Assembly (NCBI GenBank): GCA_964017065.1
Contig: OZ024784.1
Location: 15,543,152 to 15,607,151 of the forward strand
Reading direction: 5' to 3'
DNA from: Haliclona indistincta
Lineage: Eukaryota > Porifera > Demospongiae > Haplosclerida > Chalinidae
DNA: 64,000 nucleotides
The notes under the pieces are model-generated. The model worked only from the letters and a program-made list of their open reading frames with translations. It did not search any database and was not told the origin of the DNA. A program made the position numbers and the translations under genes. Of the stretch, positions 13,671-43,608 are shown piece by piece (position 1 is the first letter of the stretch; each line of letters starts with the position of its first letter).

Positions 13671-15087
13671 CTACACAGAACTGTTCATTGTCTGCTGATT
13701 GGTGTGTGTCTTCATGTGACGGTGCAAATTCCCTGACTGCGAAAACCCCAGATTACATATTTTACATCGGTACGGTTTTTCTCCGCTGTGTATTCTTTTG
13801 TGCTTGGTTAGAGTTGAAGTGTCAGCAAAACATTTGCCACAGAAGTCGCATCGGTACGGTCGTTCACCAGAGTGAGTGCGTAGATGTGTCGTTACAGAAG
13901 AGCTCTGGGAGAATCGTTTCTGACAGATTGGGCAGCTAAAAGGCTTTTCACCACTGTGAGTACGCAGGTGAGCGGTCAAATTGGCTGCTTGTGTGAAAGC
14001 CTTTCCGCAGACATCACAGCGATATGGTTTCTCACCACTGTGTGTGCGCATGTGTGTCTTGAGAGTTGACGGTCGTGCATAGCTTTTGCCACAGATTTGA
14101 CAAACATTATTGCCCGATTTCCCAGGCCTTCTTGTTTTTCCACTACCAGGAGAATTGAAAAGCTTGCCAGCTACGTCGCCTACAGAACCATTCATTTCAG
14201 ATGTGATACTGTGTGGTCCATCTGCACCACGGTCACCAATATGGCTAATGTTTGGTAACGACATCGAGATTATTGGCTTGATGTCTGAGCCAAACCGACC
14301 TTCCAACTGCCGGCAGGATCCAAATCCAGGGGGAAAGTGTATAGCGGTAGCATCATGTGGGAATCCGCCGCGGAAAATAGACGCATGTAGGAGATCTGGA
14401 GGTTGGTCATCGCCGTTGGGGAAGCCGTTCAGTTTCGTGGTTGTGGCGGAAGTACTGCTGGTCGGTGTGGAGGACTGTGGTGTGCTTGAACCAGAGCTAG
14501 AGTTGAGAGAAAGAAGAGCATTGGCAATGTCGCGCTGGTCTTGAGGAACCGTGGGCCTGAAGAGGAGAGAGAAAAAACATGTTAACATGGTGACAAAGCG
14601 TACGATAAAGTATTGTTAGGCTAGCTAGGGCCCAGGGTAAGGCTTCTTGTCGATCGATATACACACGGGATAGGCAAGAATCGCGTACACAAGGAGAAGG
14701 CTCGAAAGCCCCATGATGTTTGTCAGTGTGTCTTTCCACTGAGCTGCCATTCTACACAACGGTCTCTGTCACAGTATGCACAGACCCCCGCACTGACTCA
14801 TCGTGACGGCCACGAGCACGCTGACCCGACAACATGGCGTCACGGGCCGGCGGAAATACTCACTTTTCATATGGTGAGGCAGTGGTAGCGTATGGAGAAT
14901 AAGTAGTGATGTCGATTGGGCCTTGTGCTTGAGGGATGACAAAGGGAGAGAGTGCGTTGCCTCTCCGATCAATGTAGCTCGTTGGAGTGAAGTAATGAGC
15001 TGCTGCAGGTGGAAATCCCATGAAGTTAGACCCGTCTGTATAGGGAATGGGTCGCGGAGTGTGGATGGAAGTTGCTACTGCAGACAT
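13671..15087 (-). CDS. Glass-type five-finger C2H2 transcription factor, copy B
   Basis: Two exons, 15087-14864 and 14556-13671 (369 aa). Exon 1 encodes a Pro/Tyr-rich N-terminus ([15 protein letters not shown]). Exon 2 starts [18 protein letters not shown], then a Ser/Thr/Pro linker, a basic stretch (KTRRPGKSG), and five C2H2 fingers with helices [32 protein letters not shown] and QSGNLHRH. These are closer to Drosophila Glass than those of copy A. The single intron is phase 2 and precedes a PPT/PTV sequence, exactly as in copy A, and the ANALLSL motif is shared, so the two genes are paralogues. A second DNA-binding family (for example ZNF/Snail-like) is excluded by the GEKP linkers and these helices. 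Confidence 0.88.
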
Positions 15088-17645: not shown

Positions 17646-19169
17646 TTACTGGACAGAGAATAGATTGACAAGAGCATCATCAAGACTGGAAGACAAGGCC
17701 AGTTCATGGCCATGATCAAGCTTCCTGTTTGGAGGATGTGGTTCACTATTACCAACTAGTTCTGAGTGTCTCGAACTCTTTACCAAAGAACTACAATCTA
17801 TTAACAACAATGTTCAAACCATAAAAATAATACATTCAATTTGACTTACTGTCTTTGCTAGAGCTAGCACCTTGAGAGTCATCACCTGTGTACGAGTCAT
17901 ATGGTCTCTTGTCAATTCTTTTGCGTTTTCTACCTGCAGTGAAAATAGATCAAATTGAACTAACATACAGCAAACAAAATAATCACCTGGTCGGTCCAAA
18001 TGTCGTTCTATATCTTCAGCAGAGCCAACACTCCTACCACCAGGGGCACAGTGACTACTTGCAGCTAGGTTGCCTCTACTTGAACAAAACTCATCAATTT
18101 CTAGCTTTAGTTTAGAACAAAACTTAGCCTTGTGATGTTCGCTAAATGGGATGCCAGTAAATGGGTCACTGGCTGGTCTACCATACAACCAATCAGATTG
18201 TTGAGTGCGATGTAGAGTACTTTGATCCACCACATGTCCTGATGGAAGCATCATCGGTACTTGCATCAATTCGCAAGTAATCTCATCCAAAAACCTCTCA
18301 GGTGTGTGGTTGGCAGAGACACTGCAGGCATGATCTGAGGGTTCTCTTAATTGGTTTGTGTCACTCCGGACTCTGGCTTGAACTCCCCTATGACATGTAC
18401 TACTGACCACAACACTACCACCGACATGTTGCCTGTTTACCATTTCTGTGGACAGCACAACACACTCAGAGCTGGTTACTGGTATGTTTTGTTGTCTACA
18501 AGATGATGCTGACCCATACATATCATGCACTGCAAGCGATGGTTCGGGAGTAGATGATAACGTTTCTCTAAACTGCTCGAAGATTCTTCTCTGATGCTTG
18601 TTGCAAGCAGAACTGGGTAGACCCCACAATTCAAGCCATTTGATTGCAAGAGGTCTTGAACTGGAGAGTCTGGATACAGATATTATGATTGAAGAGATTC
18701 GGTTTGCAAGGGCATCATTTAATTTGAGAGGTTGAAGAGTAACTCTTGCCAACCTGGGCAAAACATGGCTTCCTAGCACTATATTTGGAAGTGGTAAGCT
18801 AAGCAGCTGTCTGATGGTGAGCAGTAGGCAGGGCTGAGCTCCACTGACAACAAACTGACCACAAGATTTCTGGCAGGGCCAACCAGTACCAGTCACTGGT
18901 GTACCACTACCAATAGACACATCCAGTCTACATTGATCATCAGCATCTCTCAGATCAAACCATATCACCAAATAGCGCAGCCTCACAGGTAGGGAAAGAT
19001 TCATATTTAGGTGTATTGGTGGACGAACAAACCTCTCCACTTGGAGCCCTTTTTCTCTTATTTTAAAATCATTGCTAACTAGGTTCAATGCTTCACGACC
19101 ATCAGCTTCCACTGAGCTAATCTCAAGAGTGGACACTATCGGTTGCAAGCAGCAGTTGACTAGTTCCAT
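17646..19169 (-). CDS. UBOX5: U-box E3 ubiquitin ligase, UBOX5/RNF37 family
   Basis: Nuclear ubiquitin ligase. Exons 19169-17987, 17933-17850 and 17797-17646 splice in frame to 472 aa. The N-terminal domain reads NLVSNDFKIREKGLQVERFV then RPPIHLNMNLSLP, matching the RNF37 N-terminal region. IKWLELWGLPSSACNK follows near residue 190. The U-box lies at about residues 315-385: FLDEITCELMQVPMMLPSGH, then STLHRTQQSDWLYGRPASDPF, then TGIPF. After it come a nuclear-localisation-like GRKRKRIDKRP and a helical C-terminus ELALSSSLDDALVNLFS. Human UBOX5 also has a C-terminal RING; none is seen here. An in-frame extension to 19346 exists, but a CAG acceptor at about 19282 and homology favour the MELVNCC start at 19169. 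Confidence 0.9.
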
Positions 19170-20349
19170 AGCAGGCTGATGATAAGTGTTGATGATGTTA
19201 TGATGACTGTCCCATGAACTAGTATGACAGGATGTAACAGAGTGAGTAGGTGTCAGAGTATAGTGGTCTGGGCCTACACCTGCAAACAAATCAAAACAGC
19301 GTAGTAACCAAACTGAAGTGGTTTTAGAGTGGTCAACACAATTCATCAGTAACCTAGATGGGGTTTCATGACAACATCAGTATATTAAAGGAATGCTCCA
19401 ATATCTCCATCTAGCACAAACATGCTAGTCACAAAGAGCGCATAATTTGTTGCACTAGACTTTTTGGCTGGAGTCCATATAGTCGTAACCATCAGCTAAC
19501 CTTGTAAAACTGCTATGGGCTCTTAAATGCCACTAGTCAGTAACGAATCAGATATGCGTTTGAAGTCAGTCAAAGTAGAGAACAACAAGGAAGGAAGTAA
19601 AACTGACTAATACACAGTTTAATGTTTGCGAGAATTCCCCTTGCATTAATCAAAGTCTGATGAAAATTGTTTTCAGAAAACCGTACTTATCGTACCCTTC
19701 AATCGTCAAAAAACCGTACTTATAAGCAACAACATGCACAAAACATGCCTATAGAAATTAAAGTATAATATTATTATTTTTGCACTCACAAAGTGACCAA
19801 GGTACTCAACACTGTTACTGTAAGTACATGATCAATTATTATTCAAGTTAACTGAATTAGTTATGGCACAGTAAAACAAACTAGTAACTATAGCAATCAC
19901 CAGGTGTGGTGGTAGTAAGCTACAGTGACCTGTCACCCACAAACCAGACAGGGCTGTATCATCATCAAAACAACATGGAAAGAGAGTAATACTACTACAG
20001 TACACAACTAGTGTAATCATTAATTTTTGACTCACAGCTGCTCTTTAAGTTTTATTCACTGTGTCTTAGCCTGTTGTGTCTGAAGCAAAGGTCTCAAGAA
20101 TATAGCAAAGATGTGCAAGTCACGAAACATGAACCCATTCTTGACATAAATATAATAATCTTTTCAATAGAGATTCCTACCCCACTCATAACAGTATTCA
20201 TGTACATCATTAGACTCAGTTAAGGAGATGCAGTTCAAGCCCAGCAAGAACAGACAATAGCGTAATGAGATTCATGAGCTTTTACGCAATTTGAGCAGCC
20301 TATCAAGTAGGATAAGGATGAACTGACCAGTGCCTACTCACCAAACAGA

Positions 20350-23305: not shown

Positions 23306-26300
23306 TTAATGGGTATCACGTCGTCCACGTCTCATAGGAGGAAGAAAATGTAGTTTATATTCACCAGTTTCAGTAACCCTGCAGCAGGCAATAATTTATT
23401 ATTTTTGTGACAAAAATGCAAAATGCAGGCTTACTCTGGAAAATGTTCATTACCAGATCGGTTCTGCAGAGGATTCATTCTGACCTGTTTCCTGCAGTAA
23501 TAATGATACTGATGATTTTTCAGTCGCACTGCACTAACCAGCTGTTGGCATTCTTCAGCACTCCAGCCAATTCATTCTCAGACAAGTTTCCTAGCTCAAC
23601 CAAGTTCTTCGCAAACTTCCGCTCCTGCATAATACATACAAAACATTGACTATTATTTAAAATGTTCTTATGTCACCAGTTTTTCGAATTCTTTGGCTTT
23701 CTTTGCGGTGAATTCTTTCTCAAGCATGTCTAACTCTCTTTGTAGCTGTTGTTCTTGCTTGGCTCTGCACGTCATTAACAATGCTTCACACAACAGAGAT
23801 ATTATTATAATATTTTACTTGAACTTGTCTTCTCTTATCTGATGAATAATCTTCATCACAGAGCGCCTGAATCTAGATGAGTTTACTGAAGATCGAGAGA
23901 ATTGTCCAAATGGTGAAGGTCCCTGCAAAGTTGCAATAATAATAGTAAAACAATGCAACCAAACAGCTACCTCTTCTCTGGTGAGGTGCATGGTAGATTC
24001 TTTGAAGAATTTCTTTCTTCTGATCTTGAGCTCCAATTCCTGAGAGAGGATAGCACTCACTGACCTACGCCATTATAATTACTTACTCTACTTGCTCGGG
24101 TTTTGTCCTCTTCTAGTCGTGAACTAATATCTTCAAGACCCTATAATGAGCACACACAAACTCCAGAATAGAAGATTGTATATTTCAAACAGTACCTCCA
24201 TGTGTTTTTGAATGAGACTTTCATGGTCACTTGGTAGTGATTGAGATATTCCAGTTTCAATCTGTATATCCAGTACAATGAACAGCACAATTGATATTAT
24301 CTGTTATTACCATTGCAAGTGGTGGCAGACGACTACTCAATGGTTGATAGTGTATCTGTTTTATAAAAATACCACAAAAATATACATACATTGTTTTGTG
24401 TTTGCTGACATTATCCAGTGTTTTTGAAGAATCCTGCATAAAAATAATCAATTATTGTGTAAAATATTTGCTATGTGTTCAAGAACCTTGATCATTTCTT
24501 GCTCCGTCTCCTTTTGCTTGCTCTCTTCTGCATATGTGGTGGTCTCACTTTGCCAACCAGTACATTCACACTTTATTAAGTAACAAGACGCGCTCCATAG
24601 CTCACATAAATTTACATCGTCAGATGGTCTTTCCCTTAGTTTCTACCAAATAATTCAATAGGATAAGTTCTTTGGATAAAAAGTCAATTACTTTGTGTTG
24701 GAGCTGCCATTTCTTCCAAAACACTTTGATTTTAGTGAAGCGCCTCTTAGCTGAGCTCCTGACTGCCGCTTGGTGAATATCCAGCCGGTACAAGCCACAG
24801 CTATAAAATGTTCCAATAATAAGTATTTGGCTGTTGTACACACACCTTAATAGATTCAAACGAGCTGCTTTATAATGATCATCCACTATTTGTAGTTTCT
24901 CCTGTTCAGAAGAGGCACTCAGCACCTTACTAACCAATTATGAGCAAATAATCTATTGCACATTGACTATAGCTTGCCTCAAAAATGCTCTCTCTCTTTC
25001 TCTTCTGTCTGAATAAAAATAAGTCAAAAGCTGCTTCATTTTTTCCATATTCTCTCTCCTGCTGTCAAACTGTGCCTGTACATCATTCTTGACAATAATT
25101 ATAACTTATAGACAATTGTAACATCACCTGTAGCCGAGCTTTTTGAAGCAGTTGACCCTTTTCTAATGAGTCTTGCACTTTTTCTCTTTCGCCCACAAAA
25201 TCCATAGAATCTGCACATTAGTTGCAAGTGCTAAGCTAGTCATCAATCACTAAAGATACCTATTGTGACAAGTTGGTCAGTGAGCAGAGATAACAGTGAC
25301 TTGATAGTCTCCTCTCTGTCAGTTTGGTGCTGTCTCCAGATACTCAGTAGCCTCTGGATAGCCTATAACAGAGTACTTGACTGATTATACAATGTGCCCT
25401 TCTCACCTTCTCTTCTACTGTTTTGAGTGCATTCTCAGATTTATCAACAATAGCCACCCAGTCTTTAAAGTCGTTACCATACAAGGTCAAACCTGCCTTT
25501 CTCACTAGCTCATCGAGTTGAAATTTACTGTCAGTTGTAACTTCTTGTTCCTTCTTTATCAAACTTTTCCGAAATTGTTCCATTGCTTCAGTTAACTGGC
25601 TCTTTAAACGCAGCATTGAAGCAAAGGGGCTCTCAAAGGTAGGCCTGTAATGATCAGCATCAATCTATACATTTTCACTGATACTGTGTTACAAACCTGA
25701 TCAATCCAGCAGCTACAGCAGTGTCAAGCTGCTTTACCAACCACTGACATTGCATAACATCCTCCTCTTCCAACATTTGCTGCAAGTTTGCACAAAGATA
25801 GGGCAGGCATGATAGTTTTAAAACTAACTTTTCGCATCAATGTCCGCTTCTCTCTTTCAAAGCGTTGCACTATCAATTCCTCAATTTGAAAGTGAGCCTG
25901 GGCCATTTCTTCTTCAATTTTGTCGTTTTCTTCCTCAAACAGTTTTATCAATCGATCTTCGTCAGTGAACGATGGAAGTTGCAATACACTAACAATTGAT
26001 GCCTATGGTATTTCACATTATACTGCCTCATCGATGTACACATAACCTACCTTCACCCACAGATGATAATGAGACATGAATTTTACTCTCCATTCTAATA
26101 TAGATAATTCTTTCTCCAGCACATGGTCTGATTCTTTATTCATTTCTTCACACAGACGAAACAAGTTACAGTCTTTCAGTACAAAACCTTTGATCTAAAA
26201 AATTGCACAATACTAACGTGCTATAAAGCCAATGCATTACCTCTTCTTCAGGTGAATCTGTTACCAGTTGTGTTAGCAAGGATATGGACTCAGTCTATAA

Positions 26301-29300
26301 TGTTTGTAAATGTGAATATATACACTAGTACCACCTACCTTATAAGCTTCTTGACTTTCACTGTTCATAATTCGTTCCAATTCTTTTTTCCAACTCTCTG
26401 AAAGTGATAGTTTCACCTCTCGCACATTGTGTTGCAAATCTCTCAATAGCTAAAACACACGAATTTAGCACAGTAGGAACTGGATAATTTACCTGAGCTC
26501 TTCCCTTGTCACTGAGCAGTTTAGTAGTCATGATAATTTTGAAAGCCACCTTCATCATTGCTTTAATTTGTATCATGTACAGCTCCTCTTCCATTAACCA
26601 AGTGTACTGCTCAACCTTCCTCTCATATGAGTCTGTTCTCTTCCTCCATTGGTACTCAGGCACAGCATAGAGTAGAGATGAGAAGGGAACCCTTTGGAAA
26701 TGGACACCATTAGCAATGTATAATTGCATTACACACTTACCAGCGATCATCAAATATATAGTAGTCTTCTTCTGTCGACTGTATAATACAGAGTATCATG
26801 AATATGACTATTACAAATCATGGCACTAACTTGAGTCACGGCAGCTGCAACTACAGCTGGTACTGTCTTATGACAGCAACAGCACCATCCCAGCTTACAG
26901 CAAGCAAAACATGTAACCACTATGGCTCCTCCAATCATAACTCCAATCAAAAATGAAACAATAGACAACACAATATCCAGGTTTGATCGGAAAGGCTTAT
27001 CTATCTTCTGAATACACCAGGATCGTTCGTGATTGTACTTCTTACCAGAGTACAGAGGAAACTACAGCGAAAAAATAATAATCATACACACAGTTGTTGT
27101 TATTATAACCGACTGACCAGTGTTCCCAATCCATCCTCAGGCAAGATACTGGAATAATTGACAATGAGAGAATTGTTGAGTTTCTCTAGAGAGGGGGCTT
27201 TCGTGTCAGCTTGGACAAGAAACCCAATAGTGATGGAAGAAGAAGGAGCAAGCATTGGTTTATAAGCTCGCAGGATGGTAGATGAATCGGTGGAGACCAT
27301 GGTAATATCAACATTACTAGTGAGTGAAGACTGTTCCAATAAGAGCAATGATGGTAGACGCTTTTCCAAAGTGAAGGAAAGGGCTGGGAAGTTGCTCACA
27401 GCTGAGTGAGATATAGTAATGTTGACCATTACCAACTGTGGATTCCCCATCTCCAAAACCTACAAAAATCATGAAAGGGTGTTGATGTACTCGAACCCAC
27501 ACTTGTTCACCTGTTTATTCTCCACTACATCCAGTTGTGGCTCCATTACAGTTAGATTATAGCTTGCTGTCCTAACGGTCGAATCCTGAAGTGTGCGAGA
27601 TTTCACTGTGGCACTAATTTGGGTACCGTTTGCAGCATCATCAGTGACTACAGCCACCACGGTCAATCTCATAGTCTTCTCAGTATTGCTAGTGGTACCA
27701 GGAACAACAATAGATGTGTTCAGTGCATGAGCTATAGTAGATCTATAGATATTCGTGTTTTGATTTGTCACCATAGAAACACTTTGAGCAGGAAAGGTCA
27801 ACTTGCTGTCAAGAAATTTCACTGGGAGTCGTTCAAGGTCCGACGTTATCTCTGCAAGAACAAATAATTATAGTATGCTGGATTGATAAATCATTTCATA
27901 CCCAATGTGAGAGACACATTCATACTTGCTTCAGGCAATGACAGGTCTGTTGCTAGCACAAAGATTTCCTCGATAGACACCAGTTTATCATTAGTGGCAG
28001 ACAATGAAGAGTTGATCAATTGCAATGAAGGAGAAGGAAGTGTTGGAGTAGTGATTGGTGAAAGCATAGGAGTGCTGGTGGACAGATTGCCTGAAGACAA
28101 TAGCACAAAATATTGAGGCAGTGTTCAATCGACTTACTAACCATTTTCTCCATAGTTAAGTGAAATATTGAGCAGTATGTCTGAGTTCAGGTGCACACCA
28201 TCTTGCAATTGCACTTGAAACTTGAGCACCATACCACCATCTGCTTGAGAAATATCAGGGGTCACTAACCCATTTGCTAAATCCGATGCTGAAAAAGTAT
28301 GAGTTGTTCTACCTACTGCAACGGAAGCATTTCCAACAAGACGCAACAAGGAGTGAAGATTGCTCAGGACAAAAGTAGGACGGATTGCAGGTACAACCGA
28401 TCCATTGGAGTGATTCACAGTGACTTCCATAGTGATGATATCTCCACTGTCTGCAGCTTTGTTCAAGTCATGGGCGAAGCTAGTTATACTCATCACTGGT
28501 TCTCGTACTAGCAAGTTCACAGAGTTCAATGGTTGTGTATCAGTACCAGTAGCATTGGTGTACTTGATTGAAGCTTCAATTGTACCAACTGCTCCTGCCT
28601 CTAGATTTTCCAGCTGAAGGAAAAAGGAGAAGTCCACAAAACCTTCTCCCTCACTTCTCCCTAAATTTTCAACCGCTCCAAAGTCAATGACACATGTCTT
28701 TGCAGATGAATTACAGTCAATGTGATCCACAAGGTGGTCACGATCTGTCAGCACCACATTTTTACCCGTCGTAATATTGAAAAATTGACCGGCTGCTGGA
28801 ATCGTGGATGTATTTCTGAATGCAAGAATCAACTGAAGATTAGTGTTGACTTCCTGTAAAGCTAGACTGTACTTTATTGGCACTTTTAATCCACTGGCAA
28901 CATAATAGCCTTTGTTTGATGCTTGCATGTTATCCGGTAAAAGGAATGGCTTGATCAAGCGAGGAGACTCTACCGTCAAATCAAGTACAACATGTTCTTC
29001 ACTTGATAACTGTCCAGAGTATGCAGCATTGGCTTGAGAGGCATTAGCAGATAGACTTGTGTAAAGCAGCATTCCGGTAAAGTTAAATTTTTGTCCCAGA
29101 AGTATAGGAAATGTAGAATCAATCACAAAACTGCCGTTGACAGTGAAATTCTCGGGAATATAGGCAAACTCGATTATCATTATTGTGTTGTTGAAAGTGA
29201 TAGAGTCAATAGGATGATTACAGGCTATCGTAGAAACTGGAGGGACTCGGCATCTACACGGCATTTCTATGTGGGCTTTCACTAGATGTGCTCCATTGTA

Positions 29301-32300
29301 TTGCGTGGTAATCTGAAAAGATAACTTAATGAAGTCTCCTCTGTCAAAAGTAGATGTGTTGGCTGCCATTGTCAGCTCAAGCAGAGGAGTATTTAGATCT
29401 ATCTCAAATGATGACTGTAAAAAAGTACACAGCATCACTGGATTGTAGATATGCATATTAATCACTTACATTGTATCTAGTTACTCCATGCTGGGCTGCA
29501 ACTGTCAAACGAACATTATCCTGAAATGAATTCTTGTCAATGGCAACGGCAGAAATAGTCAATGTAAGAGAGCAGTTGCTGCTGGTATTGTTATCTCTGG
29601 TGACTGTTGAGCACGCCGAAACTGGACTGTCAGTAGATGTTCGAGTAAAGGTGATCTTGTGCTGCGTGGAATTAACTTTAGTGATGACTGGTGTTCCTAT
29701 GTATTCTGGAGTGTATCTGTAGAGACCACATGGAGTCACATTCTAATAGCAATTCTTTAGACTTACCCTTCATAACTCATTTTAAGACCAAGTATGTTGA
29801 TAAGATCTGCTCCATCATGTGATACAATAATGGTTAGCTCTTTCATTGGTCCAACTAAACGGGAAAAAACAGCATCAAATTGACCAACTTCATTAAACGT
29901 GAGAGAGTTGTCAATCGTGAGTTTTTCTGAAGTAGACAGCAAAGTGAGATTGGTGCTTAGACTGCTGATGACAATGGACGGCAAAGGAATAAAATCATGA
30001 TATTTTTCTCCTCCTTCCAGTCCTTCACCAGGCAAAGAGCTATAATCCATATCGGCTAAGGGTTTTATAGATACTCCTCGTTCTGCATCAGGACTAATGT
30101 ATCCATGGACTACAACTCGCACAGTTTCGTTTCCCAGTAGTTGGTTAACATAAAGTGATAGAGTTGTTCCTCCAGCATATGGCTGTGAGCTGCTGTTCGT
30201 AACATTGGTGCCTGTCGCATTAATGGTAGTGCGGACCACCAACAGAGGATCAGGTATAGTGATGTTAATGCTTATATGAAACGCTGGAGTGGGTGAAGTG
30301 ATGTTCACGAGTATAGTCACTGTCAAGTTAGTCCCCAAATCAACAACACTGCATGGAAACAAACATGTATCTGCTCGTATGTGCTATCTTACACTACTCA
30401 CTGTGCTGATGTTATCTCGACGGCATTTAGTTGAGGCCTAACTATGAGAAAGCTATCATTTTCCATCTGTTGTTTGGGACCATTTATACTCGTGTAGCTT
30501 TTCTTGAACGTTATGGTAAAATTTGCATCAGTTGTATTAGTGGGAACTCTTAGTTCTGAGAATATCAGTATGTTGTCACTGCTGTTTTTTACGTTGTCTG
30601 GTAAATTATGTGTATCACCGAAAAAATGAAACAGACTGAAAAAGAGAATGGGAAGTGGATAAAAACTGAGTAATAGGCTTACTTTAAATCCATAGGCTGT
30701 GTAACATTAATGTTACTACCTAACTCAACTCTTGTTAGATTTACTTCTAATGGGCTACAGTATTCACAGGCAATCGTAGCATTGATCAGAGTAGACAAGT
30801 TCTGAGTGATGCCCTCAGGTAGAGTCAGCTTGTACTCTAGTATCAAGAGTTCTGCTGGTGACACATGCGGCAGAGGAACGAACGAAAGAGCTTTTGTGAT
30901 CGTCAGTGATAATTTCGGGATTAATGAAGTGATGTCCATGGTTTTACTCTAGAACATAAAAAAACAATGAATTGTCTTTGTATACAGTTAAAAAACTGAC
31001 CAGTTTTCCGTACACCTTTCCATCTCGTGGAGGAGGATCAGGACTGCTGTCATAAGAGGTCACCTCTACTCCGACAGTGAAATAATAGTCAGCAATCAAA
31101 TCATTTGGCAACTGGAACAAATAAAACCAGTTCATGCAGTAATCAGACATACACACTCACAGTCATCGTTGCTGATGTGTACCAAACACACTCAGGCATT
31201 ATCCGTCCTATTGAAAAGTAAAAACGTCCCTTAGAAACCGATGAATTTGTTTGAGTGTCGCAGTTGGTAGAATAGAAAGTTGAATTTTTGTAGGGAAGCT
31301 CAAGAATATTTTCGTAAGGATCCAGTAGAAAGACATCTAGTATCACGTCATAGGAACTGGTCAATGGCCGCTAAAAGTAATCAGGTACGGTAGCAAGTAA
31401 AGAACATAAGATGAAAACTATACTTACATCATTATGTAAGCCTATGTGATACGAAAATTCATCACCTGCATCAACAGGTGATGGGTTTTCACTGTCGAAA
31501 TACAACTGATGGAAAAATAAAATATGTAATGTTGTGAAAGGATTTATAGAGACCTTCAAAAGAGGATGGTGCAACTGCAGGTCTATCTTCGCCATCAGGT
31601 CAGGTTCTGTTGTGACAACTGCTGTGACGTAGATCCACTAAAGAAAAATAGTTTCAAGTTCTCGTGCATACAGCATAACAGTTCCTTACCATTGCGTTAT
31701 CTGATGAATTGACAAGATCAGATATGTATCCATTCACTTGCACTATCAAATAATCAAAGTCATTTTCTTCATTGTCGTAAGAATTGTTTACTCTGCCGAT
31801 ATTAAACCGAGCAGAGTTCTACAGTGAAAAAAATGGTTAGCGATTGGTTTTATGATACGTAAAGCATACTCTATCCAGTAAAGCTATCAAAGGAGTAGAA
31901 TGAGTGCTGTTAGTGACATCTCCTACAGCTAAACTAGTGTTCAAAGCTGCTCCAACATACACCACCGACGCCGAAGTAAAATTAATCGGACAGCTGCCTG
32001 TTTCCACCGTGCTGTTCAATTCCATCACAATATTTGTCTCACCCTACATTCACGAAGGAGAGATTGGTTGTGAATTTCAAAAATCAGCGTTACCTCAGGA
32101 GGTACGATAGTGACATTGAACGATACGCTCTCGCCGACTTGTACCACAATACCAGGAGTATCAGGATTTGACGTGACAAAGTCAAGATAGAGCTTAGGAG
32201 ACTTAACCTTCAGCTGAAACAGAGGTTCATAATAATATTTAACAAAATTTATATCAGTACTAACCATGTGTGTACCACTGGTACTATAATTCCTTCCACC

Positions 32301-35097
32301 AGTTTTTTCATATGGCAAAGAATCCCAGGTCAGCTTCAAGTCCAGTGGAATAACTTGACCAGATTCCACATCATTTTGTAGCAGGTAATCCATCGACGCC
32401 ATGATGCTTTCTGTCTTGTCTAGCTCTGACACATTAAATGTCAAAGTTCCAGCTACCGTGTCGTACGTAATAGATTCACTAGGAAGCTTGACACCACCAA
32501 CACTAACTGTTGGAGACGAAGTATTCAGCTGAAGAAACTCTATTGGATAGGAAACAGTGAAAATCACCCTGAATGCATTAGTGAACAAAGAGTCTGGAGA
32601 GCCTGCGTGAGTGATGGAAATAACGACATTAGCTGTGTCACCAGCATCATAGTTGTTTTGGTCATTCATTGGTCCAAACTGCAGTTTGGGTTCAGTAATC
32701 TGTGCAAGTGTACCCGTAGATACTGGTGTTAACAGAAGGTAATGAGCATACCGTAATATAGTCACTTCTTGTGGAAGTTTTCTTGCCAAAGTCAGTCAGC
32801 ACAAAGGCAGTGTATTTAAGTTTGGTACCTTCTACCAGCTCCGGCACATTCATGACAGTAGTCTGGAGTCCTATTGTAAAATCTTGTTCATCTGACAGAA
32901 TAGAATTGTTGCCTGGCACTGTCACATTGTAACCAAAATTAAAATCGACAGCCAGGCTGGAATGCTGTATGAACTCAGAACTAGCAAGACCTGAAAAAAG
33001 GAGAAGAACACTTATATACACAGAACACATAGGCTTACTGTCTCCAATTTCAAGTGTGCGATTCCATAGCTCACTGCCAACATGCACTACAGTTGCATTT
33101 TTTAGAGTCACTGAATTTGGAATAGTGGACTTAAGAGTAATGGAAGTGTAGCATTCAGGCATTCGAGCACGAATAGACATGTCTACGGTTTCTCCAATAG
33201 CAACGTAATGACTGGAGTGAGTCTCGGTTGGAGTGGCAATAAGACTGCTGTTATTGTACTCCCATGGATGCAAGATCACTAGTATAATGTTCACACCACC
33301 TTTAGATGTGTTGGTATATTTGAGACCAGGGACCAGGTGATCAAGTGGTGCTGATATGTATGTTGCTGTGCCATTTGCAGGAAGCTTGATTCCTGGAGCA
33401 ACATCTTGAGGCACTGTGACATTAAGAGAGTACTTGACCTTGTCAACGTTCAGTCTAAATCTGTTGTAAGAATACAAACAGTGAATAATCAATGGCACAA
33501 AATTGACTCACTTATCAAAAAATCCATGAATCGTATGGTTGATGAAAGGAAGGTCGGTGCAATTTTCAATGCTTCCAGCCGTGTGACAATAAGTGATATG
33601 ATCGGCGACTTCTAGTCTTCTGTCAACTTGAAATGTATAAGATAGATTCCATGCTGAAACTCCTGATGTTCCATTGTGTGAAACACCAAATGTCATGACT
33701 AGTCTATCCTTGGCGTCGTGAGTATGAGTGGATACTGAAAGAGATAGATCTGGACGTGTGACATTGACATATAAAATATCGTGCACAGTAACAGTCCTTG
33801 GTGTATCCATTTCTGAACTGCTATTATCTGCTGCTGTGTAGGTCAATGATACTGTGAATTTTTCATGCAGAGCGACATATCGTGATGGCAATCGAGTTAG
33901 ACTCACTCCTTCTAAGAGTAATATCAGTGCTGTCCAATTCTGACAAGGTCTAGTTTGCTGCAGTGCACCAAACTCAGCAATCACCTGCTCGGTGCTGTTA
34001 TAACCATTTATAATCTGTACTTGAGGGAAGTCTGTTGAGTCCAAAGGAGAAGTGGTACCAGATGAATAGGAAAGAAGAGACGATATGTTCCCTATTTGTT
34101 CAACTTTTGTGACATTGAGAAAGAAGGCTTCGTTTGTTTCTACTGCAAAAAACTTTGGTATTTGAACAGCAATGGTTATTCGAGATGTAACGCAAGGGAA
34201 CAATACCGAGACTTTGAAGTGGTATGGTTCGTCAATTTGTGGAGGAAATGAGAATGGAGAGATGTCTGCTGAGAGGTACTGTGGGTTAGAGAGGAACGAT
34301 GGTTGAAGGACGAGTCCACGTGTTGATGCTATTACGAAAGATTTCATGGTGATAGTAGGGTACGGAGATTCACTGGTAGTGTGCATTGTGATGAAGTTGA
34401 TGAACAACATGGTGTGTGGGAGTAAGACTGTCGAGATCCTCATTCGCATTGTAAGTATTGAAATTTTGTTAGAAAGAACATCCACACATACTAAAGAGGA
34501 GCAAGATTTTCTGTTGCCTCCAGTGACGCTTAGTAATTCCACTGACAACGATCGGTGATGTTGAATGCTCAACGATACGTTTCTGATCACGTCATAGTTG
34601 GATTGCGAAAAATTTACTCCGTACGAGAAGACGTCGCCCGGATCGACAAAAACAGGAAAGTCGCTGTAGTGCACGTGTAACGGATACGTGCAGTCAGTGA
34701 CTACAGGATTCTCTGTACTCACTGCAAAAGAGCAATTCTCTTGGGCCGAGGAAGCATGAACCTTGAGGGTTCTCGTCTCGTTGAATCCAGTCGGACGATA
34801 GTCGATATGCACTCCAAGAAGATGAGACTCTTCTCTCACCAGATCAAAAGCTTGCGCGTTCACCTCACCATTCAACTCCACTCTTATGGATAAATTTGCT
34901 GCAGTAAGATTATTCTCGCCACACGGCGAACTAGGGTCCACTCGTATGAGACAGTACAGGGGGACATCGAGGCACAACGAGTCAGGCCTTGCTAGTGGAC
35001 CCAAATCTTTGCAGATGAAGCTCACTATTGGATAAGCCTGCACTGTTTCGCTGTGCAAAATTAGCACAAGCAGAGCAATCGTCTGCAGTAGCATCAT
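23306..35097 (-). CDS. EVC2: EVC2 (limbin)-like giant type I membrane protein
   Basis: Vertebrate EVC2 forms a ciliary-base complex with EVC that transmits Smoothened signals. I start at ATG 35097, which opens a signal peptide (MMLLQTIALLVLILHSETVQA). An ectodomain of roughly 2,000+ residues (about 35040-27060) follows, built of repeated, N-glycosylation-rich beta-sandwich-like modules with DAGD, ...VSELDKTES and Y-S-LPGEG motifs. One transmembrane helix (SIVSFLIGVMIGGAIVVTCF, about 26960-26900) leads into CCKLGWCCCCHK. The cytoplasmic part (26900-23306) is long, charged coiled coil, as in EVC2. The last exons give KQVRMNPLQNRSG...FPE, then TGEYKLHFLPPMRRGRR and TAA at 23308-23306, resembling the basic C-terminus of vertebrate EVC2. 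About forty short introns. An alternative 3' end is a stop at 23520 if the last two introns are not used. EVC2 identity is inferred from topology, tail and neighbour. Confidence 0.7.
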
Positions 35098-35260
35098 AGC
35101 GGCTGAGACCGAAAGCAGTGAAAATTCTGAATTTGCATTTTTATAGCTGCAAGGTGCGAAAATAGCTTTTAGCACCAAATTACTATTAGCGCAACAATTA
35201 TCAGGTTATTTCAGTTATAGTTGCACGTATCACGGCCTCGTGTGCATTCTGTTGCACATT
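35098..35260. promoter_or_regulatory. bidirectional promoter, EVC2-like / EVC-like
   Basis: 163 bp between divergent start codons; AT-rich, no TATA box placed convincingly. I looked for an RFX X-box (GTTGCC-type inverted half-sites) expected for ciliary genes. Only isolated GTTGC/GCAAC half-sites are present (about 35190, 35220 and 35250), not a convincing pair. Confidence 0.6.
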
Positions 35261-38200
35261 ATGAGCAGCTACAACTTCACCGTAGTGGCAGCCAACGAGA
35301 GCTGCTTGGAAACAGCGTACGCGTTTGCTACTGCACCAGAAGTCTCTATAACAACCGTATTGGTCATCGTGTTTCTCGTGATTGGTATTGGTTGCGGTGC
35401 TATCCCTCTGCCATGTTCACTCCTCTGCTGCTTTTGCTGCAAAAAGAATATTTGCTGCTTCAGAGACAATGTAAAGTACCACAAGGTCTGTGCTGCTAAG
35501 ATAAAACGGAGCCATCATGTTTGCATGCTACTGTAGGTTGCTCCTGTCTCATCTTTGTATGAAGAATCAAGATCAGCATCAAGTGTCTCTCTGATAAGAG
35601 CATCTTCCATTGGTTGGGAGGTCAGTTGTTGGATGACGATAACATCAATGTTGTGTCCCTTTTTAACAGTTAGCAAGTAGTAATCCTTCCCGTTCTGCGT
35701 CAAGAACGAGTATATTTATGGCAGAGGAGTCCTTCACCAACAACCAAGCAACTGAGCTGGTATTACACTATAATAGTTTATACTTGCATTGTGTAACATG
35801 CTTTTAAAGGAAATATTGGCCGAGAGTGAACCTGAAGAAGAGATATTTGGAAAGTTTTATTCGGATGTGTTGATACAGAAGGGATGGTGAGTAGTGGTAC
35901 AACGCCATGTTGTCATCATTATACCACACAGGCTGAGGATGAACAGAGTGTTGTACAGACAAGAGGAGGACATGCTAGCTGTACTCAACACTCAATTCAA
36001 ATACATACACAAGTTTTTGTCCGAATTGATGCTAGAAATTCATGTTGGATTGCTGAGAGAAAAAGTGTATGAGAATGACCTTGCAGAGGCAATGAGGCAA
36101 ATGCAAACAGAACAAGCAATGGATGCCCATGTGTTGAAACAAATGCTGGCATTGATCGAGATTCTGATAAGCAATGACAATATTAATCTAGCCGAGGTAT
36201 GAGATACAAATCTTTATGTTTTTTAGTGTACTTGTTAATTTTTTAGGTTGACGAAATATTTACTAGCTTTTGGTGCCAGTGGGCTATTTGTGAAGAATTC
36301 TTGCTGTTAGGAACAAGAGACATTGTCAACGTAAGTGCAGTAGTATACTTGTGACAAATTGTAACAATGCTGCAGGGATTGGAAATATTTTTTGAGAGAA
36401 AAAGGGGAGTGACGGAAGTCTATGCATCGCAAAATATGGAGGTACATTGTTAACCAATGCATAACACTTAAACTTCTGCTGGTGCAGTTACTCTCATGCA
36501 TGAGAGAGCACTTTGACAAGCAGATGGAAATCTTGCAAAGTCTTCAAGACTCTGAAGATGATCCAATAGCAACAGATTCGTAAGTGTTCAACCGTTACAA
36601 AACAGCACAACATTACTATAGTCTGTTAGGCTTATTGAGGAGATCAAAACTCTATGGGACAATAGCATTGATCAGTATCAGTCAGGTGGGATGCTGACTG
36701 CACTAGTAACTAATTTCTTTAATGTAAAATGCAGCAATGGCAGTAAGGAAAGAGAAGCTAGGAAATTACTTGAGAGACACAGTGGAGTCTGAACTAGAAG
36801 CACTGTCAACCAGCACAACTCAAGAACTTGACCATATTCTAGTGAATGTATGAGTTCATTTCGCACTGCCTTCTTGTTTAGAAGTTAGTCTTATTATTAG
36901 AAATATGCTCAAAACCATTCAGACTGTGAAGACTATGTGAAGGAGTGTGTTAGTGCTATGAAGTCAGGCTGGAACAGAGTAATGAAAAGATCTCAAACTG
37001 TCTGCGGAATAGTATTAAAAGAATTCAGCACTCTAGCTGAGGTAACATGCAGTAATCCATTTGCGATTAGTTGATTTATACTGCAGGAACTTGGAGAAAA
37101 ATATCTTGTTAAGCTGTTTTCGAACGAGTGCGCTCTATATGACACATTCTTTGCCAAGCAGAAGCGCTACAATCTTGAGAAAAGAAACCAAGTGATAGAC
37201 GAACACAACCAAAATTTGGAAAACCTAAAAGGTTTAATTATTTACTTGATTTGTTTTGTCACCTTACACTTCCTAAAAAGATGAACTTCACAAACTAAGG
37301 AAAACCCAGTCTAGTCAAGTTCGACAAAACTTCCGCGAGGTAAAAATCATAAATACCATTAGCACATTTTGCACTTGTTTACTGGAACTAAGATGTCTTA
37401 TTTTGTCAATTTACACATTTAACACACTGTCTGTATTCACTGCTGAATGATTTTCACAAATACGTGAAAATTTGAAAGAATAACTAAAAGGTTGACAAAA
37501 AATTTTGGCAAATTAATTTCATTTAGTTCAACTTTTACAGTCATTTTCAATTCTGTTTAATGGAAATTTTTCAGAAGGCCGTGACACTGCACTGTAAAAC
37601 TAACAATAGTCTGTAGAAGCATTTTAAACATGTATAAATTATATGATAAATGATTCAAAGATATTATTATGTTACTCGCCTTAATGAAAATTAGCACAAT
37701 TTACACTGGTTCATGTGTTCTCTTTGATTGATAAACGATAGGAGTTCAAGCCAGCGCTGAGTCCTTTACCACCAGAGGAACTCAAGGAGACACCACTATA
37801 CATTCTGATACAGGCTGACCTCAGTATTGCTGAGCGGTACAATGACCATTGCAACTATTACAACAATCATTCTCTGGTACTGCAGGCAACAGAGTGCATT
37901 GCTGCATCTCTACTCAGTAGAATACTCTTCAACAATACTGCACCACAAAATGCAACAGTGCTTAGAAAAGAAAAAGTTGGAGACATTTAGAAGCCAAATT
38001 CAGTTAGATCTAATCCACTCACTTTTTATTCTGTAGACTGGCTTTTGAACAAGCAAATGACAAATGGTCGCTCGCAGCAGGATTGCTGCACAAACAATCT
38101 TTGCTGCTCAATATAGCAAAATTCCTTTCTTCTGAAGACAGTGTCATTAAGGTAGCAATATTTTAAAAAAGTAATACTACATGTACTTGTTATCAATGCA

Positions 38201-39347
38201 CATGTAGTCACCAGCATTTACCAGGGGAGCTGCCAAGATTGATGAAAAATTTGAGCAGAAGGCAATAGAGACGAGAAGGTAAAAGGATGCAGATGCATGA
38301 TTAAGATTTCATCTGACGATATTATAATAGGGACAACAGAGAAAAATTAACAGAAGATTTGGGCACAATGAGTGATAGTTTGAAACAGCAGATTGAACAC
38401 ATACATGTGAGCTTCACTGCTTAAAATACTATGCGTGACTATGCAATGGTACAGGAGAGGCAAGAGAAGATTGTCACAATGTACAGCAAGCAAGAAAAGG
38501 CTCTTGATGTTCTGAAGGTCTATCTCTGTTATCGACCATCAATTATTGTGCATCATTATTCTGACATAGGACAAGTTGGTGGACCGACTCACCAAGTCAG
38601 GCAACAGTACAGGGCAGGTAGTGGTGAAGGAACACCTCCATTACAACAAGGGGTTGATGGAGTCTATGGAGAGGTACTTGCTGCATTATGCTGACATGTC
38701 TTTCATCCTAACTGACAGGTACAAGCAGCGACAAGAGCAACTGCTCAAACAGAAGCTGCAAGCTCGACAGATGAGCAAGTTGGTTGGTGGTCGTCCAAGC
38801 ACCACATGCTCACAGCAAACTTGTCATCAGCTTGGTCCATGGACATCAGGAAACAGTGAAAAGTTAGGAGGAGGTTTGATAACAGCAGCTTGCATTGAAA
38901 GAATTGCTCTAGGTTTGCTATTGAAGTTTTCATTCAACTGATGCAAGACATTCGTCATAAAAATAAAATGAAGGTGAGTCAGCCGACAGGCTGATTTATG
39001 ATGACTTTGAAACTATAGAACCTGGAGAAGGAATTAACTACGAATCTAGAGCAAATGCAAAGTAGAATGAACATGCAATTCAAGCTACAGCTTCAGGTAC
39101 TAACAAATCTCATCTTACATTTTGAGTTTAAGTTCTGTAGATGAGAGAGAAAGAGCTGGTGGAGAAGATGGCTAACGTAAGTGGACTGGGCAAAGAAGAG
39201 CTGGAGGCTGAATTGAAAGATGCAGTCGCAGGTATTTGTACAAAATCTCAGTTACAGTAAAATTTATTTTTTCACACAGCAACTGGAGGAGATGAAACAG
39301 TGAATGAGTCACTTACACGAAGTCTGAGCCAGTTCGTACTCCATTAA
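35261..39347 (+). CDS. EVC: EVC-like membrane-anchored coiled-coil protein
   Basis: Probable partner of the neighbouring EVC2-like protein. The ATG at 35261 gives a short luminal N-terminus with two N-glycosylation sites (NFT, NES), one transmembrane helix (ITTVLVIVFLVIGIGCGAI) and a Cys-rich juxtamembrane stretch (CCFCCKKNICCF). The rest is cytoplasmic, helical and charged. Exons that join in frame give FGKFYSDVLIQKGWLRMNRV, EEDMLAVLNTQFKYIHKFLS, VDEIFTSFWCQWAICEEFLL and, near the end, DKLVDRLTKSGNSTGQ and KQRQEQLLKQKLQARQMSK. The layout (short N-terminus, helix, then all coiled coil) is that of vertebrate EVC. The last exon ends SLTRSLSQFVLH with TAA at 39345-39347. About twenty introns, one of about 400 bp (37340-37740). 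Sequence identity to vertebrate EVC is weak by eye; position beside EVC2 strengthens the call. Confidence 0.65.
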
Positions 39348-39440: not shown

Positions 39441-40516
39441 TTACAGCTTTCTGCGTTTGTTAGTAACTGATAATTGCCGCTCCAAGTCTCCAACTCTTTT
39501 CCGAAGCGACCCAATTTCACGTTCAGCTTCTGCTTTAGCATGTTGCAGTTTCTAGACAACGGTACCTAACGTACACTGCACATGGTACAAAACTCACTCA
39601 CTCTGCGGAAAATATCGTTGTTGACAGCTGAGGACTGGGCAGTCTGATGTTTAGTGGTCTGTTTCTGCAACTTCAGTAGCTTTGCATCATACTAGAGTTG
39701 ATGTGCATGTATTATCATTAGAATGTGTTCATGACTAACCTCTAGTCTTAGCTTAACAATCTCAGTGTGCTTGTCTCGGTCAGCATCAGAGAGTTGTGTG
39801 CGTAGTTGTCTTATCTCAGCTGCCTTGTCTTGGACTGTCCTTTGCAATGTCTCCAGTTCCCTTTTCACTGGAATTGTAATGATTACAACCAAAAAGCTGA
39901 GCTCTTGCTTACATTGTTGGTTTGAGGAATCACGAAGCCGACTAATCTCAACTTTATTGGCTTCCTGCATGGCTTTCATATTTTCCATCATCTCGGCCAT
40001 CTGTTGAGAGTGCAACTGCTCTAGTTTTTCAGCTTCTTCCTTCATCAACTGCAACTGCGCTTTCAAACTACTGTTTTCCTCTGTTAAAAGGTATAGTTTG
40101 GTGGAGAGTTTTTACAGCATCGTGCAGTGTATGTCACCTTCAAAATCAGATCTTCGTGACAATATTTCCTGAAGCTGTTCAATGGTTGAGTGCAGTTGAT
40201 TTGCATCTGCATAATTTTGACAAAATATAAAATTAGGAAATGTTATGAATTACCTTCAGAAGCAACCTTCTGTGCATGTTCGTGTGCAACAGAACGTTTC
40301 TGCAGAATTCCCAATTCAGTGGTCACTCTTACATTTTCTTGATGAATATCCTTAGTTGCCTTCAGCAAACAAAGTAAAAAAATCCCATTGCAGCAAATTA
40401 TAAGTCACCTTTTGGCAGCATTGAAACTCTTCCACTAGCTGTTTCAGCTCTATTACTGCTAACGGCACCACCAGGTCCACCTGTGTGTTGCTGCCGTCGT
40501 CGCTCTCCGGTTCCAT
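39441..40516 (-). CDS. CCDC152: CCDC152-like coiled-coil protein
   Basis: Small coiled-coil protein of unknown function. The start MEPESDDGSN is at 40516; an in-frame ATG at 40543 would add nine residues. Nearly the whole chain is heptad-rich helix: ELKQLVEEFQCCQK, QENVRVTTELGILQKR, KAQLQLMKEEAEKLEQLHSQ and VKRELETLQRTVQDKAAEIR. The C-terminus reads EIVKLRLEYDAKLLKLQKQT, then FRRKLQHAKAEAEREIGSLR and KRVGDLERQL...NKRRKL, matching the conserved CCDC152 C-terminal signature (RRKLQH...EI..LR..I.DLEQRL...KRRR). TAA at 39443-39441. Tail-to-tail with EVC and head-to-head with TAF1B. Confidence 0.8.
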
Positions 40517-40563
40517 TATTGCGCGCCCTCGAGCTCCACCCAAACCACGCCCAACACGTGGTC
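40517..40563. promoter_or_regulatory. 47-bp bidirectional promoter, CCDC152 / TAF1B
   Basis: Only 47 bp separate the two start codons (20 bp if CCDC152 starts at 40543). It contains GCGCGCCC, CCACGCCC and CACGTG at about 40555-40560, likely activator sites. The core promoters must overlap the first coding exons or each other. Confidence 0.5.
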
Positions 40564-42610
40564 ATGGAGTCTTGTCCGATATGTGGCAGCGAGTGTTTTG
40601 ACGCTAGCGACGGTCTCTACTTCTGCACTGATTGCGGTACACAGTCACAGGTAACCTATAAACATCATTGGATATACTGATCTCCTGTTTCGTGTACAGG
40701 ACGTGCGTGAGGAAATTGCCGAAGACGACTTTGTAGATATCACCATCCACAGGCAGCTGAGGAGAGGAAAACAAACTGATCTCTCTACTCCCGTCAAGCA
40801 GCAGAATGGAGTAAGAAAAGTGACGGTTGAGAACTTTCAGCGTATGCTACAGCAGCAAGCTGACGCTCTTGTTGAGCTTGGCTACAATTCCTCGCTGAAG
40901 GTCAGTTACAGCTCTTGAAGCATGTTTTTATTGTGTGAATTTGTTTTAGGAACCACTCAAGTACTTGTGGTTTGTTTATTTGGATTGGTTCATGGAGAAA
41001 ATGGCAGATGTATTTCGTGAAGCACCTAAAAAGGTTAAGCTAAGAGGAGGAGGAACAAAAAGGAAAGCAGATGGTAGTCTGAAGAATTCTGCCAAAAGAA
41101 TAAAATTGGAGCAACAGCAGGGAAGTGTTGAGGAGGGTTTGGAAGTTGAGCGAGTCACAATGGAGGAGGAGAACCTTATGCTTGATGGTGACGGTGTTGT
41201 GAATCTGTGTGCAGTGAGGAGAGGTAATCATAAGTATGTTGGTCGATACGAACTCATGCCGTCAAAGAAGCTAGCCCTAGCCTTGCTATACCTGGCGCTG
41301 CTATACTCTGGTCAGGCTGTGCTTATTGTTGAATTGATCAGGTAAGTACTGATTTGTGACCGTGCATGATGTACTGTTGTGCAGGCTCTTGGAAAGACAT
41401 AAGTTACCACAAATAGGGTTTGAGCACACTGGATTGAACAGTGAGGTAGGCAATTCATGCTAACAGATTTGAGTCGCCAATTTTTTGCTGACAGGTGGAC
41501 CTCAAACCTGATTATGTGATGCAGTACATGAGGCCGTTCTTCCAGCAGGTGCTTTCCATTTCATTTCCAGCTATGGACTACCATCAACTAGGCTGCATCA
41601 TACTGGACAAACTGTTACTACCAAGTGAGCCTATTAGCAATGATTTTTGCCTGTGAGTGTGAGTTATCTAGCTTACAGAGAGCTTGCAAATCTGTTTGAA
41701 GAGGTTGCTGCAAGTGTACTGTCCCACAATGCAGACTGTGGCTCCTAAGAATCGTAGTTCAGACCAAGATGGAACCAAACCAGATATATTAATGGCAGCT
41801 ATGATAGTAGTGTTACTGAAACTCATCTACCGGCTTGACGACGTGTTTGAAATGTAAGTTGCATGCACACTAACAAGTTATCAGCTTTTTTTATTCAGAC
41901 AACAGTCTTCAGTAGCAGCGACCACAGATCAATCGACTATAGATGAGTCTACAGCAGTGTATGTGTGGAGTGACTGGGTACAACTAATCAACCGCCATCA
42001 AATAGCTGAAGCAAGGAGTGGAGCGGTGGAGACTATACAGTACATATCCTCACTTTACAATTACTACTATTATCAAACTGTTTATAGGGACATTGCTGCT
42101 ATTGAAGATGGCTACCAGACAGACTATGTACTGTACTGTGAGCAGTTGATGGAGAGGGAAGCCTTGGTACTCTCTCCTATACATACGAATATCATCAGAA
42201 CCATACAGACAACATTCAAAGACTACCTTAGCAAACAGAAGACAACAAAAGCTGAGGTTGAACCAATGACAGAAGATATTCCTACACGTACACCAAGACT
42301 ATTACCAATAGACCTCATTCTGCCTGATATTGGACGATCTTCAAGCAGCTATCACTTCGTCTCATACCCATACCATCGAAAGACAAAGCTACCGCTACAT
42401 CTGATACCAAACTTGTCCTCCTCTGTGAACTTTCTTCTGCGAATATTGTCTAGAGTCGTGGGACACAAGCTTGAAATGCTCTTATCGGCTGTGAGTATGG
42501 TTGAGAATGAGGTGAGAAGAAGGACAGAGATAGCAACATTAACAATAGCAACACTCTCGGCAACAACAGAGTTACAGCAAGGAGACAAAAATGACTTACT
42601 ACAAAGATGA
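40564..42610 (+). CDS. TAF1B: TAF1B/RRN7, RNA polymerase I initiation factor subunit
   Basis: TFIIB-like subunit of the SL1/core factor complex that recruits RNA polymerase I to rDNA in the nucleolus. The ATG is at 40564. An N-terminal zinc ribbon, CPICGSECFDASDGLYFCTDC, is split between ligand pairs C-x2-C. A reader-linker stretch follows (VTVENFQRMLQQQADALVELG, then KEPLKYLWFVYLDWFMEKM), matching TAF1B. A basic linker of low complexity (about 41030-41110) precedes the first cyclin-like fold (MPSKKLALALLYLALLYSGQ). The second fold contains MAAMIVVLLKLIYRLDD-type sequence (about 41790-41850), though the exact residues there were read across an exon boundary. The long last exon (about 41900-42610) contains YVLYCEQLMEREALVLSPIH and FLLRILSRVVGHKLEMLLS, like the family C-terminus. 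Stop at 42610. Confidence 0.88.
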
Positions 42611-42748: not shown

Positions 42749-43608
42749 TCACTCTTCCAGATGTAAGTCAAGGGAGTCACACAGACTAGTAATGATATGT
42801 GGAGACAGCTCACTCACTGGTACTGTATATTTGTACGGAGATGAATTGGTCACTTACAGTATTATAGTCACCTTCTCTGCCAAGTAACTGTGTGAGTGAT
42901 GTTATTCCTTTGTCACCCAGCCCACAAGGTACGATATGGTTATACCAGGAGAGATCTGTACTGCAATTGATAGCGAGCCCATGATAAGCCACACCCATAC
43001 TGACCTGAACACCTGGAGATGCGTCAAATAGTCTGTAACATCTTCATGCAATCTCTTCTTACCAATAGCTCCCAGCTTCTCATCTTTGACCCACACCCCT
43101 GTGTGTTGGCTGCGATGAGCTACTACACTTAGCTTCTGCACTGCTGCTATCATGGATCCCTCTAAAGCATTGATGTAGTCTCTCACACCAACTTTCAGAG
43201 TATGCAGGTTCAATATAGGATAGCACACTAGCTGTCCTGGTCCATGGTATGTTGTTAGTCCCCCACGATGGGTCTATAAGGGTCAGGTACGTGTCGTGTG
43301 CAGTGAGACAGTAGTGTCTACCTTGCATACATCAGCACCGATTGACTGCAGCCATTGCAGCATATCTGGATTAGTCTGCTCTCTTAGACCAAATGTGTAC
43401 ACTGGATTGTGTTCCAGTATCAGTAGTTCTCCAACCTAGCTAACAGCAAGAATAATAGACTCATAATCTGAGTGCCAATGCAGACTATAACTGAGCAAAC
43501 ACACACCTTACTAGTGTTTCTAGCTTTATATAACTGCACCAACTCTTTTTGCAAAGCGAGGCAAGACCTATAACTGATTACACCAAGCTGTCGAACAGAA
43601 ACAGACAT
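42749..43608 (-). CDS. LIPT2: octanoyl-ACP:protein transferase, mitochondrial (LIPT2)
   Basis: Transfers octanoate from acyl carrier protein to the glycine cleavage H protein, the first step of lipoic acid synthesis in mitochondria. The ATG at 43608 starts MSVSVRQLGVISYRSCLALQ. Next come VGELLILEHNPVYTFGLREQ, then RGGLTTYHGPGQLVCYPILN, HTGVWVKDEKLGAIG and GLAINCSTDLSWYNHIVPCG, the whole LipB signature. The catalytic Cys in VPCG and the conserved Lys in KLGAIG are present. The last exon, spliced after LLGRE, reads VPVSELSPHIITSLCDS and ends at 42749. Four or more exons. Head-to-head with WDR11. Confidence 0.93.

Follow-up and report, generated by a model that had tools for sequence, protein, structure and literature searches.

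The 64,000-nucleotide stretch of the genome of the demosponge Haliclona indistincta analyzed here (the window; G000:C2:15543152-15607151, in a genome of 144 Mb in 46 contigs) contains two divergent genes that are likely, on the most economical reading of their sequences, the sponge counterparts of EVC2 and EVC; we give this reading a probability of about 0.6. EVC and EVC2 form a ciliary complex that relays the signal from Smoothened, and their loss causes Ellis-van Creveld syndrome. They are described as paralogues that bind each other and reside in the ciliary membrane with their C-termini in the cytoplasm (PMC3052239). The case for orthology is made mainly from the topology of the two predicted proteins, the order of their genes and the resemblance of the proteins to each other. 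Hereafter, the two are denoted minus and plus, after their strands; the features of the locus are as follows.

23306..35097, minus strand: EVC2-like gene, 44 predicted exons, 3218 residues (spliced open frame; tail at one locus)
35035..35097, minus strand: signal peptide, first ~21 residues (hydropathy window at residue 1; cleavage site placed by eye)
27118..34713, minus strand: ectodomain of about fifteen repeats of ~150 residues, residues ~129-2374, putative beta-sandwiches (anchors by eye; profiles; model)
26831..27061, minus strand: exon encoding the last part of the ectodomain, the membrane helix and a cysteine cluster, CCKLGWCCCC (hydropathy, sequence)
23306..26902, minus strand: cytoplasmic coiled tail, 791 residues (sequence; one locus)
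23306..23378, minus strand: last exon, C-terminal TGEYKLHFLPPMRRGRRDTH, resembling the EVC2 Weyers peptide (pattern test; most alignment settings not significant)
35098..35260, no strand: gap of 163 bp between the start codons, candidate shared promoter (sequence)
35261..39347, plus strand: EVC-like gene, 24 predicted exons, 865 residues (spliced open frame; one locus)
35261..35485, plus strand: first exon, with the short N-terminus, the membrane helix and the cysteine cluster CCFCCKKNICC (hydropathy, sequence)
38845..39231, plus strand: C-terminal module like that of the minus gene (Smith-Waterman score 67)

The exon models come from a small splice-aware script, trained on the long frames of the window, with subsequent correction by hand, and their ends are predictions; joined in this way, the exons of minus (35097→23306) and those of plus (35261→39347) each form a single open frame that is unbroken across the whole gene model. 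The two genes lie 5' to 5', at the coordinates and with the spacing given in a sequence-only reading of the window that had proposed their identity with EVC2 and EVC. In exon-by-exon genome searches, which score the best candidates only, every match, 17 for plus and 18 for the minus tail, fell at the gene's own locus, and no further paralogue of either gene was found.

The topologies described in that reading are borne out by hydropathy. Minus combines a hydrophobic start and a single membrane helix (19-residue windows starting at 2398-2420) with the ectodomain between them and a long cytoplasmic tail, judged by eye to be a coiled coil, as in EVC2. Plus has about 25 residues before its only membrane helix (windows starting at 20-43), a signal anchor with no ectodomain, and its tail of ~810 residues, which follows the cysteine cluster, would be cytoplasmic as in EVC. 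That the minus model might be a false fusion of a repeat-ectodomain gene and a coiled-coil gene, as could happen where exon ends are predictions, is highly improbable: a single exon, 27061-26831, encodes in one frame the ectodomain end, the helix and the cysteine residues that follow, with in-frame joins on both sides.

The mutual resemblance of the two tails was assessed with a diagonal test, in which scoring is limited to a band along the diagonal that is anchored at the membrane helix and the score is compared with window and heptad shuffles; because coiled-coil composition inflates this test, its values are to be taken with caution. On the anchored diagonal, the minus and plus tails score 88, a value that 2 of 600 window shuffles and 6 of 600 heptad shuffles attain. 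The control pair, EVC2-EVC, scores 134 in the same test, reached by 3 of 600 and 0 of 600, respectively. In 40 decoy runs, with IQCE and with reversed coils, P was <=0.12 in 11, <=0.06 in 5 and <=0.01 in 1, and by window shuffles the minus-plus pair beats every one of them. The last 150 residues of the two proteins produce the Smith-Waterman score of 67 (matched four times in 1000 window shuffles and once in 1000 heptad shuffles), and the end-to-end alignment contains 145 identities in 718 pairs. These comparisons give moderate support to the suggestion that the two tails are paralogous, as EVC and EVC2 are.

The direct comparisons with EVC2 and EVC themselves are suggestive at best. Among the 13 registers tried, minus-plus and minus-EVC2 score best at the anchored one, the control EVC2-EVC at +80, which is joint best for plus-EVC, and plus-EVC2 and minus-EVC elsewhere. 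The expected ortholog pairs outdo the cross pairs in the anchored-diagonal test: the score of plus-EVC is reached by 36 window and 8 heptad shuffles of 600 and that of minus-EVC2 by 70 and 70, compared with 349 and 332 for plus-EVC2 and 143 and 140 for minus-EVC. It could be argued that only minus is a genuine member, EVC2-like, and that plus is a later duplicate or a coiled-coil membrane gene that is its neighbor by chance: the hints of EVC2 concern minus, the membrane-proximal segments of plus and EVC do not match (P 0.69), and a motif visible in plus recalls EVC2 rather than EVC, if short of significance. However, plus-EVC outscores minus-EVC at the expected register (71 vs 51), in addition to its rarity among heptad shuffles, and the likeness of plus to minus parallels that of EVC to EVC2; we consider this alternative improbable.

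A number of observations weigh against identifying the pair with EVC2 and EVC. Decoys reach P values similar to those of the direct comparisons, so that minus-EVC2 is unremarkable and plus-EVC marginal. No Pfam family was found on minus or plus, and PF12297 (EVC2_like), the EVC2/limbin family, does not match minus, which is why we call it EVC2-like only; the three weak matches of PF12297 in the genome (E 0.8-8) all lie outside the window. No homologue of either protein was found at E<=1 among ~8000 word-sharing candidates from a database that includes mammalian limbins, and Z scores of single sequences against human EVC and EVC2 are 0.9-2.1. Against paralogy of the two tails, the membrane-proximal parts of minus and plus do not match (P 0.41), HH-align of the two yields P 0.053 over 16 columns, and there is no excess of shared intron positions (0-2 observed vs 0.3-2.2 expected). 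The mammalian EVC2 ectodomain has roughly 200-300 residues, as opposed to ~fifteen repeats and ~2380 residues in minus. The head-to-head order, for its part, counts little by itself, because 45% of the genes of Amphimedon (18,054) are so arranged, 11,379 of these with start sites <1 kb apart (PMC4773876); taken alone, the spacing is ordinary for a compact sponge genome. Orientation combined with mutual resemblance and two matching topologies counts for more than orientation by itself.

Some of these failures are less telling than they might seem. PF12297 scores human EVC2 at 720 bits, yet misses its paralogue EVC, which shows that the reach of this family is short. Searches with an EVC2 profile by HMMER and HH-align detected neither window protein, which says little because human EVC, the control, likewise is not joined to the mammalian EVC2 profile. 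This comparison was made with mammalian records, there being no invertebrate sequence among the EVC2 matches listed (120 of 627). HH-align produced no EVC or EVC2 match, and sequence searches of the PDB with minus and plus recovered weak unrelated matches only. Overall, the identity proposed in the sequence-only reading is partly supported by topology, orientation, the resemblance of the tails and the lack of a matching rival family, but neither protein was identified as EVC or EVC2 by any search.

The main rival to orthology is a sponge-specific pair of paralogous membrane coiled-coil proteins that share their topology with EVC2 and EVC by chance, in which the small protein would be the cytoplasmic partner of the large one, an adhesion receptor. 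Such an origin would account for the lack of any family or homologue and for the size of the ectodomain, a compact sponge genome has many divergent pairs, and the direct links to EVC and EVC2 are weak and partly within the range of the decoys. Nevertheless, several weak likenesses fall on EVC2 in the expected order and the cross pairs do worse, and no further paralogue of either protein turned up in this genome; we regard this explanation as unlikely, albeit the most serious of the alternatives.

Minus shows local resemblances to EVC2 in an ectodomain hairpin, in segments of the tail and at the C-terminal end, all of them weak, and several controls and alternative settings fail to confirm them. 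The membrane-proximal segments of minus and EVC2, picked after inspection, match with P 0.021, but five of the six pairs fail this test, including the control EVC2-EVC (P 0.21) and minus-plus. Minus matches a 45-residue segment (EVC2 926-970) at a level that, under either shuffle scheme, 1 shuffle in 200 attains, this being one of 12 tests (four lengths, three proteins). The best match of the repeat profile in the EVC2 ectodomain is the hairpin just before the membrane (P 0.015, vs 0.28 with the reversed alignment); with the 15-repeat alignment and 40 of the 91 sequences, the same match is reached by 0 of 150 column shuffles, but with the 12-repeat alignment by 21 of 150, and single repeats against the EVC2 ectodomain give P 0.025-0.79, with 0.32-0.42 for the last repeat. 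A likeness noticed between 'FFAKQKRYNLEKR' in plus and 'DFFQASKRYHLSKRF' in EVC2 was dropped, since shuffles reach it.

The C-terminal end deserves separate mention. Minus ends, in its own last exon, with TGEYKLHFLPPMRRGRRDTH, and human EVC2 ends with TGEKLFIFR…EISLHVPPRKKKN followed by a short remainder; this end, which is missing from EVC2 in Weyers dysostosis, binds EFCAB7 through FV and RRKKN motifs (in mouse) (PMC10413113). Of 120 mammalian EVC2 records, 95 contain the pattern TGE-4-F…PP-basic, and when the last 50 residues of minus are shuffled, the pattern appears 2 times in 200,000, but it is the strictest of four patterns that were all written after the match was seen, the loosest being reached by 0.36% of shuffles. 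Alignment of the C-terminal end gives P 0.05-0.34, with most settings not significant, and a tail hidden Markov model places minus among its own shuffles. The possible likeness of the minus end to the EFCAB7-binding peptide is, in our view, a lead worth testing.

The ectodomain of minus appears to be a string of beta-sandwich domains. Its repeats, with anchors picked by eye at a spacing of 136-174 residues, share 6-21% identity with the first row of the respective alignment, and 83 N-X-S/T sequons were counted in an earlier whole model of the protein, the last ~130 residues of which were out of frame. Profiles of ten and twelve repeats match cohesin domains in the PDB (4uyp, E 0.031, and 10ut, E 0.0009, respectively). 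In a search of ten repeats against Pfam and NCBIfam, each family matched one repeat, with a best E of 0.014. The structure predicted from a ten-row repeat alignment consists of nearly all strands, at low confidence (pLDDT 55.5), and among its 50 listed structural neighbors, which have TM-scores <0.5, beta-sandwiches of pilins, adhesins, integrins, cohesins and antibodies predominate; neither this model nor that of EVC2 (pLDDT 47) supports a claim about the fold on its own, and the likeness to cohesin and to bacterial pilin or adhesin beta-sandwiches is one of fold at most.

Set beside the known proteins, minus shares with EVC2/limbin the signal peptide, an ectodomain before one helix, the coiled tail, a divergent neighbor and the weak local resemblances, including the C-terminal TGE…F…PP-basic end, and differs in the cysteine cluster that follows the membrane, in ectodomain size and in the missing PF12297 match. 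Plus shares with EVC the short N-terminus, one helix, the coiled tail, the head-to-head position next to an EVC2-type gene and the joint best register +80; unlike EVC, it has a cysteine cluster after the membrane, its tail is shifted by ~80 residues in register, and no match is significant beyond the range of the decoys. The head-to-head order of EVC and EVC2, called ancestral in the sequence-only reading, has been published already for vertebrates, amphioxus, sea urchin and the snail Lottia, although not for the sea-anemone assembly, and Trichoplax has an EVC-like gene (PMC3052239). The sponge pair would be a possible addition to this series, none of whose non-vertebrate members is a sponge, and is likened to them by its non-vertebrate occurrence and, in amphioxus, sea urchin and Lottia, by the gene order; the word sponge is absent from that text, and among the open-access papers listed in our literature searches there was none on EVC2 in a sponge. 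In two annelid transcriptomes, EVC2 was found and EVC was not (PMC9695228).

The same genome offers a view of the Hedgehog pathway in this sponge. A frame with a hedgehog N-terminal domain is followed just downstream by a VWA frame (L011, G000:C6 10381216-10384515), an arrangement that we take to be that of hedgling, as in Amphimedon, and there is one SUFU match, at 68 bits. There are six Frizzled-family loci; in a comparison of three of them with the PDB, each matched Frizzled far better than Smoothened, so that no Smoothened was found among these three, and the remaining three look like near-copies. Three adjoining divergent Frizzled-family genes (L007, L008 and L009, G000:C10 ~1.546-1.559 Mb) are nearly identical by eye; L007 is nearer Frizzled-3/6 than Smoothened, and L009 is partly masked. 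Taken together, the sequence matches fit a demosponge without Smoothened and support the conditional suggestion, made without knowledge of the host, of a sponge with an incomplete pathway. Smoothened has been reported in Calcarea, Hexactinellida and Homoscleromorpha (PMC9695228). A genome search for collagen IV gave no match, but the control genomes gave none either, so that the sponge class is not fixed thereby.

The 163-bp gap, which may serve as a shared promoter, contains three GTTGC/GCAAC half-sites, and at least three occur in 3 of 392 tiles of 163 bp, as counted after the sites had been seen; the best score for a full X-box in the gap, 8 of 12, is the commonest among tiles, and there is no strong full RFX site. 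Rfam and tRNA scans were without result. Elsewhere in the window, two tail-to-tail genes, at 12199-13149 (plus strand) and 13674-14615 (minus strand), encode five C2H2 zinc fingers each, with very similar fingers that recall the fly eye factor Glass. To our knowledge, none of the neighboring frames of the window recalls the human EVC neighborhood; those matched in Pfam are as follows.

17817-19376, minus strand: U-box with DUF5918
40378-40677, plus strand: Rrn7-type zinc ribbon
42905-43273, minus strand: lipoyl ligase
50483-50842, minus strand: TFIIF alpha
53776-55239, minus strand: CNNM
58327-59994, minus strand: TPR with an ANAPC3 match

If minus and plus are indeed EVC2 and EVC, they probably go back to a single membrane coiled-coil gene that was duplicated, as in other animals, and the two proteins may bind each other via their cytoplasmic coils, by analogy with mouse Evc and Evc2. 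The complex would reside in the membrane of the ciliary or flagellar base, for instance in choanocytes, and the basic C-terminal tail of minus could dock it there. With its large repeat ectodomain, the EVC2-like partner would act as a receptor or adhesion molecule that binds something outside the cell. Since Smoothened is apparently missing, the original role would fall outside canonical Hedgehog signaling. More tentatively, and with rather more doubt than confidence, we suggest that a sponge with hedgling and SUFU but without Smoothened keeps a complete divergent EVC2-EVC pair, the EVC2 of which bears a giant, adhesive ectodomain of fifteen repeats, and that the complex began as a ciliary adhesion receptor that was recruited to Smoothened later.

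Should this prove true, both the EVC/EVC2 duplication and the head-to-head gene order would be pushed back to the base of the animals. The EVC complex would be separated from Smoothened, with the pair being older than its best-known role in Hedgehog signaling and retained, with an unusually large EVC2 ectodomain, in a sponge that has no recognized Smoothened. The size of the extracellular part would suggest that EVC2 once bound something outside the cell, and the role of the complex before Hedgehog would become directly testable in choanocytes.

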